Below, in pieces: positions 2,031 through 6,146 of a stretch of 64,000 bases of DNA (positions are counted from its first letter, which is position 1; the number at the start of each line of letters is the position of its first letter). The position numbers and the translations under genes are program-made. Location: assembly GCF_023953935.1 (NCBI RefSeq), contig NZ_JAMLIW010000003.1:228200-292199 (forward strand), read 5' to 3'. The notes beneath the pieces are model-generated. The model was not told the origin of the DNA and made no database searches. It worked only from the letters and a program-made list of their open reading frames with translations. Source of the DNA: Thermomonas sp. GTDB taxonomy: Bacteria; Pseudomonadota; Gammaproteobacteria; Xanthomonadales; Xanthomonadaceae.

Positions 2031-5000
2031 ATGGGGGCCGAGAAACCCAAACCCAAGCGACACCCTGAGCCGACGTTCAGACAAGCCCGGCGCGCCATCG
2101 AGGCCGCGCTGACGGGCGACCGTGGTCGCCTGCTGGGGCTGCTGAAACAATGGCAGGGCAAGCCGGCCGATGCGGCACTGCAGGCGGCGTTCGCGCACAA
2201 GCTGCAGGCTTCGATCGACGAGCGCGAACGGCGTGCGGCGCGGTTGCCGAAGGCGACGGTGAACGCGGATTTGCCGATCGCCGCGCACGCCGAGGACATC
2301 ATCACGCTGATTCGCTGGCACCAGGTGGTGGTGATCGCCGGCGAGACCGGCAGCGGCAAGACCACCCAGTTGCCCAAGTTGTGCCTTGCGGCCGGGCGCG
2401 GCGCAGCCGGGGTGATCGGTTGCACCCAGCCGCGGCGGCTGGCGGCGCGTTCGGTGGCGCGGCGGGTGGCGGAGGAGTTGCAGGTGCCGCTGGGCGGCGC
2501 GGTGGGCTTCCAGGTGCGCTTCAACGACGCGGTCAGCGAGCAGACCGCGATCAAGTTCATGACCGACGGCATCCTGCTGGCGGAAATCCAGCACGACCGC
2601 TGGCTGTCGAAGTACGACACCCTGATCATCGACGAGGCGCACGAGCGCAGCCTCAATATCGATTTCCTGCTCGGCTTTCTCAAGCAATTGCTGCCGCGCC
2701 GGCCTGATCTGAAATTGGTCGTCACTTCGGCCACCATCGATACCGAGCGCTTCGCTGCGCATTTCGGTGGTGCGCCGGTGGTGCAGGTGGAGGGGCGTGG
2801 CTATCCGGTGGAGCTGCGTTATCGGCCGCTGGATGAAATGGTGTCGGATGAAATGGTGTCGGATGAAATGGTGTCAGGGACAATTTCCGGCGATGCGAAG
2901 GCAATCGGTCGTACAGGTCGCGAAATTGTCCCTGACACCATTTCCGGCATCGTTGCCGCCTGCGACGAAATCCAGCGCGAAAAAGGCATCGGCGATGTGC
3001 TGGTGTTCCTGCCCGGCGAGCGCGAGATCCGCGATGCCCATCAGGCGCTGGAGAAGCGCAAATATCGCCACACCGAAGTGCTGCCGCTGTATGCGCGGCT
3101 ATCGGCCAAGGATCAGGACCGGGTGTTCCATCCCGGCCCTGTGCGGCGGATCGTGCTGGCCACCAATGTCGCGGAAACCTCGTTGACGGTGCCGCGCATC
3201 CATTACGTGATCGACCCCGGCGTGGCGCGGGTCAAGCGCTACAGCCCGCGGCAGAAGCTCGATCGGTTGCATATCGAAGACGTGGCGCAGGCCAGCGCCA
3301 ACCAGCGCGCCGGCCGCTGTGGGCGGATCGCGCCGGGGGTGTGCATCCGCTTGTATTCCGAAGCCGACTTCCAGTCGCGCGCGGAGTTCACCGATCCGGA
3401 AATCCGCCGCGCCGCACTGGCCGGAGTGATCCTGCGGATGCTGGCGCTGGGCTTGGGCGAGATCGAGAAATTCCCCTTTCTCGAAGCGCCGGACCCGCGT
3501 GCCATCGCCGACGGCTGGCAGCAGCTGGCCGAACTCGGCGCGGTCGACGGCGAGCGCAAGCTCACCCCCATCGGCCGCACGATGGCCAAGCTGCCGGTGG
3601 ATGTGAAACTTTCGCGCATGCTGGTCGCCGCGCAGGCGCACGGCGTGTTGCCGGATGTGCTGGTGATCGCCAGTTTCCTCGGCGTGCAGGACCCGCGCGA
3701 GCGCCCGGCCGATGCCCGCGCCGCCGCCGATGCCGCGCATGCGCAGTTCGCCGATGCCAAGTCGGAATTCGTCGGCATCCTCAATCTGTGGGAGGCCTAC
3801 CGTGCCGCGTACGAGGCGTCGAGCCAGTCGCAGCTGCGCAAATGGGCGGACCGACATTTCCTCGGCTTCCTGCGCCTGCGCGAGTGGCGGGAGCTGCATC
3901 GCCAGCTCAAGCTGCAATGCGAGGAACTCTTCCCGTCATCCCCGCAAAAGCGGGTCGCTTCTGACCGACGCGTGTCTGCCCAATCCATGGAAGTTTCAGC
4001 GAATCCGGAAACGTCCATGGACTCCCGTTTCCGCGGGAGTGACGGGCAACGCCATGAATACACCGCACTGCACCGCGCCCTGATCGCGGGCCTGCCCACC
4101 CAGATCGGTCACCGCGGCGAGAAGAACCAGTACGACGGCCCGCGCGGGCGCAAATTCGCGCTGTTCCCGGGATCGAAGCTGGCCAGCAAGCCGCCGCCGT
4201 GGGTGCTGTCGGCCACCCTGCTCGATACCGAAAAAGTGTGGGCACTGACCAATGCCGCGATCGAGCCGGAGTGGGCGATCGCCGAGCTGGCGCACCTGCT
4301 GGCGCGGCGCCCGCACGACCCGCACTGGTCGCGCGCGCAGGGCCGGGTGCTGGGCAGCGAGCAGATCAGCTTGTTCGGCTTGGTGCTGGCGCCGAAAAAA
4401 CCGATCCATTACGGTGCGCTGTTTCCCGAGGAAAGCCGGCAGATCTTCGTGCGCGAGGCGCTGCTGACCGGCGAGATCAATACCCGCTGCGCCTTCCTTG
4501 CGCGCAACCTGCGCACACTGGAGCAGGCCGGGCAGGAAGAAGCCAAGCAGCGTCGGGTGGGACTGGTGGTGGACGAGGACTGGCAGGCGCGCTGGTATCT
4601 GGACCGACTGCCGCCACACGTCCACAACGCGCAGGCGCTGGATGCCTGGTACGGCAAGTTGTCGAAGGACGCCAAGGCCGCACTGGAGTGGGCGCGCGAC
4701 GACCTGCTGGTGGCCGACCTGACCGACGCTGCGCGCTTCCCCGCCTATCTTGCGCTGGGTGATGCGCGGCTGGCGGTGCAGTACCGCTTCGAGCCGGGCG
4801 CGCTGGACGACGGCATGACCGTGGCGGTGCCGCTGCACCTGCTTGGCGCGCTGGATGCCGAACGGCTGTCGTGGCTGGCGCCGGGCTTCGTCGAGGACAA
4901 GGCGGCAGCGCTGATCAAATCGCTGCCAAAATCGCTGCGGCGCAACTTCGTGCCCGCGCCGGAGTTTGCCCGTGCGTTTGCGGAGGCGCATCCGCAGCCG

Positions 5001-6146
5001 GAGGCCGATGCCATCACGGGCGTGCTTGCCCGTTTCCTGAAAAAACTGTCGGGCGTCGAGTTGCTGCCCTCCGATTTCGACGAAGCGGCGCTGGAGCCGC
5101 ATCTGCGCGCCAACCTGCGCCTGCAGGACGGCAAGACGGTGCTGGCCGAATCGCGCGATCTTGCCGAGTTGCGCGCGCGCTTTGGCGCACGCGCCGCGCA
5201 GGCCTTCGCCAAACATGCGGCGCAGGACCTGGCACAGTCGGGGCTGCGGGAGTTCCCGGCGCGGCCGCTCCCGGACAGCGTGCCCGGCGCGGGTGGGGTG
5301 CCGGCGTATCCGGCGTTGCGTGATGACGGTGAATCGGTGTTGGTGGTGGTGCTGGCCCGGCGCGGCGACGCCGAGCGCCTGCACCCACAGGGCGTGCGGC
5401 GGCTGCTGGCCATCGCGCTGGCGGAGGCGTGCAAGCAGGCGCGCAAACAGTTGCCGATCCAGCCCAAGCTCTCGCTGCTGTATGCCGCGATCGCGGCAAG
5501 GGGGACGGACTCGCTTTTTCTTCGGCATGGGCACGAGGCGGCGCGGCACGGCTGGACAAGCGACCCTGACCCCCGTGCCCGCGATCGGTTGCGTGCGGAT
5601 CTGGTCGAGGGTGCTTTCAATGCGCTGGCGGCTGATGGCCTGCTTGCCGTACGCGATGCCGCGGCCTTCGCCTGCCGCCGGGAGGCCATCGGCCGGGAGC
5701 TGTTCGGCGAGGCCATGCGGCGGTTGGGACAAGCCGAAAACATCCTCGATCTGGTGGCCGAGGTACGCGCGAAGCTGGAATCACGGCTGATGGGCTGGGC
5801 GCGCGCCAATCTCGATGACATGCGGGCGCAGCTCGATGCGCTGGCCGGCCCCGACTTTCTGCTCACGACCCCGGCCGCCGCACTGGCCGAGTATCCGCGC
5901 TGGCTGAAGGCGCTGGCGCTGCGCGCCGAACGCGCCCAGCGCGATCCGGTCAAGGACCAGGCGCGGATGCTGGAGTTCAAGCCATTCCAGGATGCGCTGG
6001 CCGCTGCCGACGCCGATGCCCCGGAGGCGCAGGCCCTGCGCTGGGAGCTGGAAGAATTGCGGGTGTCGCTGTTTGCGCAGGAATTGGGGGTGAAGGGCCG
6101 GGTATCGGCCAAACGACTGGCGCAGCGGTTGCAGCGCCTGGCTTGA
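2031..6146 (+). CDS. hrpA: ATP-dependent RNA helicase HrpA (DEAH box) with two in-frame repeat insertions
   Basis: HrpA is a DEAH/RHA-type 3'-5' RNA helicase that in E. coli resolves stalled or collided ribosomes on mRNA. Start ATG 2031 gives about 1371 residues; E. coli HrpA has 1300. Walker A (Gly-Glu-Thr-Gly-Ser-Gly-Lys) is at 104-110, DEAH at 201-204, Ser-Ala-Thr near residue 233, and the QRAGRCGR motif VI near residue 424. The large C-terminal DUF3418 region typical of bacterial HrpA is present. The excess length is largely two insertions that do not resemble helicase sequence: residues about 268-306, between motif III and the second RecA domain, and about 634-673. Both are encoded by palindromic repeats and keep the frame open. 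The gene is divergent from dps and ends 44 bases before relA. Confidence 0.93.
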   Translation: MGAEKPKPKRHPEPTFRQARRAIEAALTGDRGRLLGLLKQWQGKPADAALQAAFAHKLQASIDERERRAARLPKATVNADLPIAAHAEDIITLIRWHQVVVIAGETGSGKTTQLPKLCLAAGRGAAGVIGCTQPRRLAARSVARRVAEELQVPLGGAVGFQVRFNDAVSEQTAIKFMTDGILLAEIQHDRWLSKYDTLIIDEAHERSLNIDFLLGFLKQLLPRRPDLKLVVTSATIDTERFAAHFGGAPVVQVEGRGYPVELRYRPLDEMVSDEMVSDEMVSGTISGDAKAIGRTGREIVPDTISGIVAACDEIQREKGIGDVLVFLPGEREIRDAHQALEKRKYRHTEVLPLYARLSAKDQDRVFHPGPVRRIVLATNVAETSLTVPRIHYVIDPGVARVKRYSPRQKLDRLHIEDVAQASANQRAGRCGRIAPGVCIRLYSEADFQSRAEFTDPEIRRAALAGVILRMLALGLGEIEKFPFLEAPDPRAIADGWQQLAELGAVDGERKLTPIGRTMAKLPVDVKLSRMLVAAQAHGVLPDVLVIASFLGVQDPRERPADARAAADAAHAQFADAKSEFVGILNLWEAYRAAYEASSQSQLRKWADRHFLGFLRLREWRELHRQLKLQCEELFPSSPQKRVASDRRVSAQSMEVSANPETSMDSRFRGSDGQRHEYTALHRALIAGLPTQIGHRGEKNQYDGPRGRKFALFPGSKLASKPPPWVLSATLLDTEKVWALTNAAIEPEWAIAELAHLLARRPHDPHWSRAQGRVLGSEQISLFGLVLAPKKPIHYGALFPEESRQIFVREALLTGEINTRCAFLARNLRTLEQAGQEEAKQRRVGLVVDEDWQARWYLDRLPPHVHNAQALDAWYGKLSKDAKAALEWARDDLLVADLTDAARFPAYLALGDARLAVQYRFEPGALDDGMTVAVPLHLLGALDAERLSWLAPGFVEDKAAALIKSLPKSLRRNFVPAPEFARAFAEAHPQPEADAITGVLARFLKKLSGVELLPSDFDEAALEPHLRANLRLQDGKTVLAESRDLAELRARFGARAAQAFAKHAAQDLAQSGLREFPARPLPDSVPGAGGVPAYPALRDDGESVLVVVLARRGDAERLHPQGVRRLLAIALAEACKQARKQLPIQPKLSLLYAAIAARGTDSLFLRHGHEAARHGWTSDPDPRARDRLRADLVEGAFNALAADGLLAVRDAAAFACRREAIGRELFGEAMRRLGQAENILDLVAEVRAKLESRLMGWARANLDDMRAQLDALAGPDFLLTTPAAALAEYPRWLKALALRAERAQRDPVKDQARMLEFKPFQDALAAADADAPEAQALRWELEELRVSLFAQELGVKGRVSAKRLAQRLQRLA
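2832..2944. repeat. REP/BIME-like inverted repeat plus tandem 15-bp repeats, embedded in hrpA
   Basis: Two 23-base arms, 2865-2887 and 2922-2944, are perfect reverse complements; the core of the left arm is AATGGTGTCAGGGACAATTT. They flank a 34-base loop. The sequence resembles REP-type palindromes that are normally intergenic and mobilised by RAYT transposases. Immediately before and into the left arm, a 15-base unit (GATGAAATGGTGTCG) is repeated three times in tandem (2832-2876). The whole block stays in frame in hrpA and encodes three Asp-Glu-Met-Val-Ser units followed by a Gly/Ile/Thr-rich stretch. Confidence 0.85.
3931..4048. repeat. Second interspersed palindromic repeat embedded in hrpA
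   Basis: The ends form an imperfect inverted repeat: CCCGTCATCCCCGCAAAAGC near 3932 pairs with the reverse complement of TTCCGCGGGAGTGACGGG ending near 4046. Internal CCATGG motifs at about 3985 and 4015 also pair. This matches the widespread proteobacterial intergenic element type (CGTCATTCCCGCGAAAGCGGG family). It is inserted in frame and contributes about 40 residues (Pro/Ser/Arg-rich) that do not fit HrpA family sequence on either side. Confidence 0.8.

Follow-up and report, generated by a model that had tools for sequence, protein, structure and literature searches.

The hrpA locus and its in-frame palindrome

The window, i.e. the whole 64-kb stretch of Thermomonas DNA analysed here, harbours an intact hrpA gene encoding a DEAH-box RNA helicase (Table 1), which was identified by its match to TIGR01967 (1386 bits vs a cut-off of 722.75) and contains the Pfam domains DEAD, Helicase_C, HA2, OB and DUF3418. 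Within the gene lies a palindrome of two 23-nt arms that are 100% complementary and separated by 34 nt. The hrpA frame runs open through this palindrome, which corresponds to HrpA residues 279-305. As the Pfam DEAD domain ends at residue 237 and Helicase_C starts at residue 311, the palindrome is located in the interdomain linker, and an alignment with E. coli HrpA (PDB 9ggr) places 25 additional residues at this site in the HrpA of the window. A first-pass annotation of this DNA had described two perfect 23-base arms with a 34-base loop, in frame within hrpA and between motif III and the second RecA domain; all of this was borne out, with the 1371-aa frame staying open.

Table 1. Window coordinates of hrpA, of its inserts and of the tract it has in common with genome G006
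Feature	Position	Strand	Remarks
hrpA, DEAH-box RNA helicase	2031..6146	+	1371 aa, frame intact from ATG 2031
Tract common with G006	2445..3226		95.7% identity; core 2532-3007 with three mismatches outside the repeat region
15-nt unit GGATGAAATGGTGTC, three perfect tandem copies	2831..2875	+	Third copy extends into the left arm
Left arm (site 1)	2865..2887	+	23 nt; with the next base codes EMVSGTIS
Spacer (loop)	2888..2921		34 nt; near-identical in G006, other sequence in G010 and other copies
Right arm (site 1)	2922..2944	-	23 nt; with the next base codes EIVPDTIS on the + strand
hrpA site 2, second inverted repeat, in frame	3932..4046		Arms 23 nt, 78% complementary; other dispersed family
hrpA site 3, degenerate inverted repeat, in frame	5495..5579		Arms 22 nt, 77% complementary

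The RNA of positions 2845-2964 is predicted to fold at -65.6 kcal/mol, against a mean of -38.2 for shuffled sequences (z -7.6; 0/200 shuffles equal or better), and when up to three mismatches are allowed, the 18-nt core of the arm has two matches within the window, against 0.02 expected. A chance inverted repeat was rejected on the basis of this fold, of the excess of core matches in the window and of the zero control matches obtained in 25 genomes. An assembly or sequencing artefact was also considered, given that inverted repeats are prone to misassembly and that several of the relatives are metagenome bins. However, independent assemblies (our own, G006 and G010) agree on the class and the site of the palindrome, with a different spacer in G010, and we therefore rejected assembly error, the probability of an artefact being negligible.

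The 15-nt tandem unit GGATGAAATGGTGTC covers HrpA residues 267-282 and is present in three copies in the window vs one in the near-identical allele of G006. By eye, small tandem duplications beside the arms, i.e. the one in the window and those at L005 (~1950-2015), L083 (~2267) and L013 (hrpA site 2), start or stop at GTC|A, where nicking or slippage may occur.

The gene contains two more inverted repeats that keep its frame (sites 2 and 3), and the inserts at both sites vary from species to species in the genus. With up to three mismatches allowed, the left arm of site 2 has 14 places in the genome, itself counted; a similar insert at this site was seen in G016. At site 3, alignments revealed related filled alleles in G006, G017 and G018, and the alleles of four scattered species (L010, L011, L075 and the window) have a related spacer, LRHG..AAR..W. 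Close relatives, among them G021, G024 and G002, have this site empty. In the assemblies of G016 (L024; 1107/724 aa) and G009 (L022; 1251/186 aa), hrpA is split over two frames.

Copies of the arm and the resident transposase

The arm core GTGTCAGGGACAATT occurs at 14 exact places in the 2.59-Mb genome of the window, both hrpA arms counted. The same genome contains one Y1 transposase gene with the same motif, GGTGTCAGGGACAATT, on either side, the end of the transposase frame extending into one of the motif copies. Thus, both the arm copies and the RAYT-kind transposase gene that the first-pass annotation had proposed to search for are present. The transposase matches Pfam PF01797 with 52.7 bits (cut-off 23) and NCBIfam NF047646, the REP-associated tyrosine transposase, with 62.8 bits, which is below the equivalog cut-off of 80. 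It is related to RAYT proper yet fails its equivalog threshold; with an IS200-like Y1 transposase gene and matching flanks in the genome, the palindrome is a RAYT-associated element.

A second full pair of arms is located in frame in icmF, encoding the fused isobutyryl-CoA mutase (NF045497, 1628 bits vs a cut-off of 1500). The same left arm reads EMVSGTIS in HrpA and KRCQGQF in IcmF, i.e. two frames are used in one genome, and the shared thing is therefore the DNA and not a protein motif. A pure protein motif was rejected on these grounds and because the arms are also found outside genes. This icmF (L001:5121-8795) has two further in-frame inserts that resemble repeats, SPPGRG...PHPNPSPEGRG and PVRGELVEPRA. 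Other frames of the same genome show weak similarity to the region of the former. Six single arms of the window's class form three pairs about 2 kb apart (L002, L003 and L004), beside sequences resembling RHS/YD-repeat genes.

Matches to PF01797 are present in 18/25 genomes of the genus. The transposase is flanked by the window's class in four genomes, with a variant arm on one side in G017, and wherever hrpA site 1 is occupied by this class, i.e. in three genomes, a transposase gene with such flanks is present as well. Of 33 occupants, 15 have the class of a transposase in their own genome, compared with a mean of 4.8 on permutation (p 0.0002); the permutation takes no account of relatedness and uses class labels read by hand from the flanks. 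For 3/24 transposase loci no frame was obtained, and for several no clear class; five class E occupants, in which GGTCAG alone is present and one of which (G004) looks like chance, stand outside the 33. The other 18 occupants match no transposase class assigned in their genome, which may be due to lost transposases, to spread by recombination or to wrong labels.

Relation to known repeat elements

The REP-type, RAYT-mobilised nature proposed in the first-pass annotation holds only in part. While a RAYT-kind transposase with the same motif is indeed present, a REP in the strict sense is not supported: the 23-nt arm has neither GTAG nor GTGG, the head that defines canonical REPs (PMC2817692; here and below, published systems are given according to the accessible parts of the cited papers), the self-palindromy of single arms appears weak or absent, and the transposase stays below the RAYT cut-off. 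On its own, the window's arm folds at -2.7 kcal/mol, with 13/200 shuffles as good, and four other arms at -1.4, -0.2, 0 and 0 kcal/mol. Judged by sequence, the arms would be a better fit to a TIR type than to canonical REPs. TIR-flanked transposases (TIRtrons, TIRYT repeats) with the motif GGGGWSAS have been reported (PMC3733652), a motif to which GGGGTCAG of the sister classes conforms and from which the window's class, GGTGTCAG, is one base off. As here, these systems comprise a transposase gene between terminal inverted repeats as well as paired and dispersed copies; unlike here, the accessible text does not report TIR families from within genes (PMC3733652).

In structure, the palindrome corresponds to a REPIN, i.e. 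an inverted pair with a spacer forming one hairpin. Published REPINs share this organization of two inverted repeats and a spacer in one long hairpin as well as the link to RAYTs, but were studied in extragenic space, with more than 1000 repeat units in one genome (PMC3116915), compared with 0 to 7 exact pairs per genome here. As an in-frame coding palindrome in a gene of known function with empty orthologues, it also appears RPE-like. The Rickettsia RPEs are the classic coding palindromes (PMC10969869) and, as here, lie in frame in unrelated genes and code for extra peptides; they differ in being about 150 bp long and present in many genes, whereas we found 46-80 bp between core ends, few genes and other bacteria, along with a transposase with matching flanks (PMC10969869, PMC3733652).

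The first-pass annotation had further taken REPs to be established as intergenic, which is contradicted by the REPs inside genes, often repair genes, reported by Di Nocera et al. (2013, PMC3733652). These GTAG/CGTC REPs are, like ours, in-frame palindromes in known genes, the GTAG types being tied to tyrosine transposases, and their hosts include repair genes and, in O. terrae, RNA helicases; different REPs were described at about the same recB site in two Xanthomonas, and neutral insertion in flexible linkers was offered as an explanation (PMC3733652). Here, there is no GTAG/CGTC head and the same sites recur across genera. Neither hrpA, icmF nor priA is named in the accessible text of PMC3733652, the gene list being in its supplement. 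With these REPs and the Rickettsia RPEs already in print, the hrpA case is not a first. In the open PubMed Central literature we found nothing nearer than PMC3733652 and no account of the HrpA, IcmF and PriA sites, of the phase bias or of the interspecies tract described below.

Occupancy of HrpA site 1 in the genus

Among 23 HrpA orthologues of the genus, 11 keep the native loop at site 1 in the alignment, seven hold a palindrome of this type, in three arm classes, three have another insert and two a degraded form. The window's class was found in our own genome (G000), in G006 and, with a different spacer, in G010, and other GGKGTCAG-type classes in G017, G024, G020 and G022. These seven were classed by script, while the third insert (G011, G012 and G018) and the degraded forms (G003 and G019) were assigned by eye, the loop of G003 being no longer than an empty one; G016, with a longer loop that lacks a palindrome, was counted as empty, and G005 and G023 had no usable hrpA. 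The loop is variable among orthologues, in line with the tolerant loop suggested at first, and neither of the outcomes that would have spoken against a mobile element, i.e. the stretch in all close orthologues or arms unique in the genome, was found, the stretch being missing from 11/23.

The native loop is mostly lost in the filled alleles, although the third insert retains part of it, which amounts to replacement rather than clean insertion. Occupancy tracks the tree poorly: the 12 filled alleles at site 1 require at least 10 class changes (shuffled mean 11.5, with states entered by hand), a value as low being reached in 7% of shuffles, and at three other sites in all shuffles. Together with the different arm classes at one site and the related site 3 spacers of four scattered species, this poor fit is what might be expected if filling took place early in the family and the first occupants were subsequently replaced or converted in place by other elements. 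Yet the empty alleles have a similar native loop in 10/11 empty members of the genus (the longer loop of G016 being the exception), so that early filling would need many reversions, and we consider such a founder insertion rather unlikely.

A tract shared with G006

The allele of the window lies in a tract shared with G006 (Table 1), whose near-identical part extends over about 0.5-0.8 kb around the element. The identity is 95.7% over the tract, 83.3% over 2031-2540 and 88.8% over 3021-3900; in steps of 100 bases it amounts to 99-100% at 2600-2999, compared with 80-89% at 2100-2499 and 80-96% at 3000-3899. The best-scoring segment, which delimits the tract, has a score of 403 vs a permutation maximum of 79 (reached in 0/1000). 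Without the repeat region, where mismatches mostly result from gap placement by the aligner, 664 positions of this segment contain 22 mismatches vs G006, 64 vs G021 and 70 vs G014. By eye, a single base distinguishes the two elements once the extra 15-mers are set aside, and our genome and G006 rank first of 253 genome pairs for excess flank identity at site 1 (0.144; next 0.094).

G021, which the tree places together with G006 (support 0.997 and 0.966), has an empty loop, as does G014; our own genome is placed with low support (0.677 in the joint tree). The tract identity and these empty loops point to transfer of the element with its flanks by homologous recombination, in either direction, as the best reading of the sequences, though both alleles might still go back to a common ancestor, G021 and G014 having lost the element. 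The mobile insertion of the first-pass annotation, understood as direct transposition into hrpA, is not supported, the tract pointing to allele exchange instead. As a general rule for shared elements, recombination was rejected, since in five other shared pairs (G006/G024 and G020/G002 in icmF; G018/G011, G011/G012 and G018/G012 in hrpA) no excess of flank similarity over the average of the genes was seen on both sides. Recombination is thus supported for one case, i.e. our genome and G006.

In-frame palindromes across the family

The paired-arm pattern, which in its exact form favours young copies, matched 33 elements in 14/25 genomes of the genus (0 to 7 per genome) and gave zero control matches; with our own icmF copy, whose longer spacer escapes the pattern, the total is 34. 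Of these, 21 are in frame in genes (hrpA 8, icmF 10, and one each in genes for an IspA-type synthetase, PriA and ScpB) and 13 are not. Nineteen of the 21 were called by script, on the basis of one best frame common to the two sides without a stop, while two were added by hand, i.e. site 3 of the G006 hrpA (L075:4703, inside a 1332-aa frame) and the tail of ScpB (L070).

When 296 genomes of the family were scanned, matches were obtained in 35. Outside the genus there were 57 elements in 25 genomes, of which 44 distinct ones were examined (one at a contig edge was left unscored and one place was met twice), the other 13 belonging to G181 (11) and G071 (2). In frame were 17/43 scored copies (IcmF 9, HrpA 4, PriA 1, TPR proteins 2, phosphoesterase 1), and 26/43 were not. 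In a wide scan of named genomes (13 loci), a codon model trained on the genus Thermomonas placed the copies of Rhodanobacter and Rhodanobacteraceae out of frame with any gene. IcmF was recognized by family search at L152, L153 and L181 and by flanking residues at L154-L158 and L163. For the whole family this gives 38 in-frame copies among 77 scored paired elements, partly called by hand (HrpA 12, IcmF 19, PriA 2, others 5).

The sites recur outside the genus: IcmF sites A (L152), B (seven loci) and C (L181) as well as HrpA sites 1 (L178) and 2 (L165, L166 and L168) were found filled, and one PriA linker is filled in both G005 and G104, all sites being assigned by eye from flanking residues. 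They are variable linkers, located between Pfam domains in HrpA and PriA. Most of a bacterial genome is coding; what is striking is therefore the narrow list of genes and sites and not the intragenic position as such, which is no enrichment in itself. Such a pattern might reflect nothing but the survival of neutral debris, i.e. of REP-like elements in tolerant linkers, as would fit the variable sites, the 13/34 and 26/43 copies that are not in frame in a gene, and the proposal of neutral insertion in flexible linkers in PMC3733652. On the other hand, 31 of the 38 in-frame copies lie in two genes, which make up 7.8 kb of 2.59 Mb in the genome of the window, and at sites recurring across genera; tolerance alone hardly accounts for so narrow a list, even if kinship lowers the number of independent events below 31. 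We regard neutral debris as a serious possibility, with somewhat less than an even chance.

The phase of the 3' arm is identical in 38/38 in-frame copies (37 by script and ScpB by hand, where the script had picked a longer, different frame and the ScpB frame was used instead), although shared descent makes for fewer than 38 independent cases. Of the two open phases, the one used yields DSDP, PDT or SDT peptides and the other was never seen, just as the 5' arm was never in the GVRV phase. On sequence grounds, this bias fits selection against hydrophobic linkers, and hence translation, without proving it. The first base outside the core pairs in 33/34 elements of the genus, the cross-pair expectation being 0.25. 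The bases just outside the core vary between elements of the genus, yet pair within each.

Taken with the strong hairpin, the phase bias and the outer pairing could also be read as signs that the host has selected for a functional peptide or for an mRNA hairpin, e.g. for slower translation between the RecA domains. But spacers and classes vary freely and about half of the orthologues in the genus have no insert; moreover, the first outer base is paired in 12/13 non-coding copies, i.e. nearly as often, so that the pairing belongs to the element and not to the host gene. We therefore hold a host-selected function to be highly improbable.

Proposed origin and implications

Very probably, the palindrome in the HrpA linker is a short non-autonomous element of mobile type that came from elsewhere by the action of a transposase and was passed between species by recombination. 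The element consists of two inverted arms like those flanking the resident IS200-like tyrosine transposase gene and would have arisen elsewhere through the transposase. One lineage would then have acquired it in hrpA at the expense of the native loop, and homologous recombination would have passed it, together with its flanks, between species. The peptide that it adds to HrpA is most likely soluble and tolerated as part of the linker, with no function that the host requires. HrpA sites 1-3, IcmF sites A-C and the one PriA site may thus represent recurrent safe harbours, and mobile DNA at these linkers seems, as far as the sequences tell, to have repeatedly become part of proteins.

A bolder idea, which we consider improbable, is that the enzyme linkers are evolved docking sites, with spread mainly by nick-started allele replacement, i.e. 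a homing-like drive without a classical homing endonuclease. There, a nick at the element, perhaps at GTC|A, would start the recombination that carries the element and its flanks into empty alleles. If the transposase-derived element passed on by recombination is the right explanation, mobile-type DNA would have been turned into protein again and again at the same HrpA, IcmF and PriA linkers throughout the family, and the natural empty and filled alleles would make the entry of palindromes into proteins, and the choice of these proteins, a testable question.
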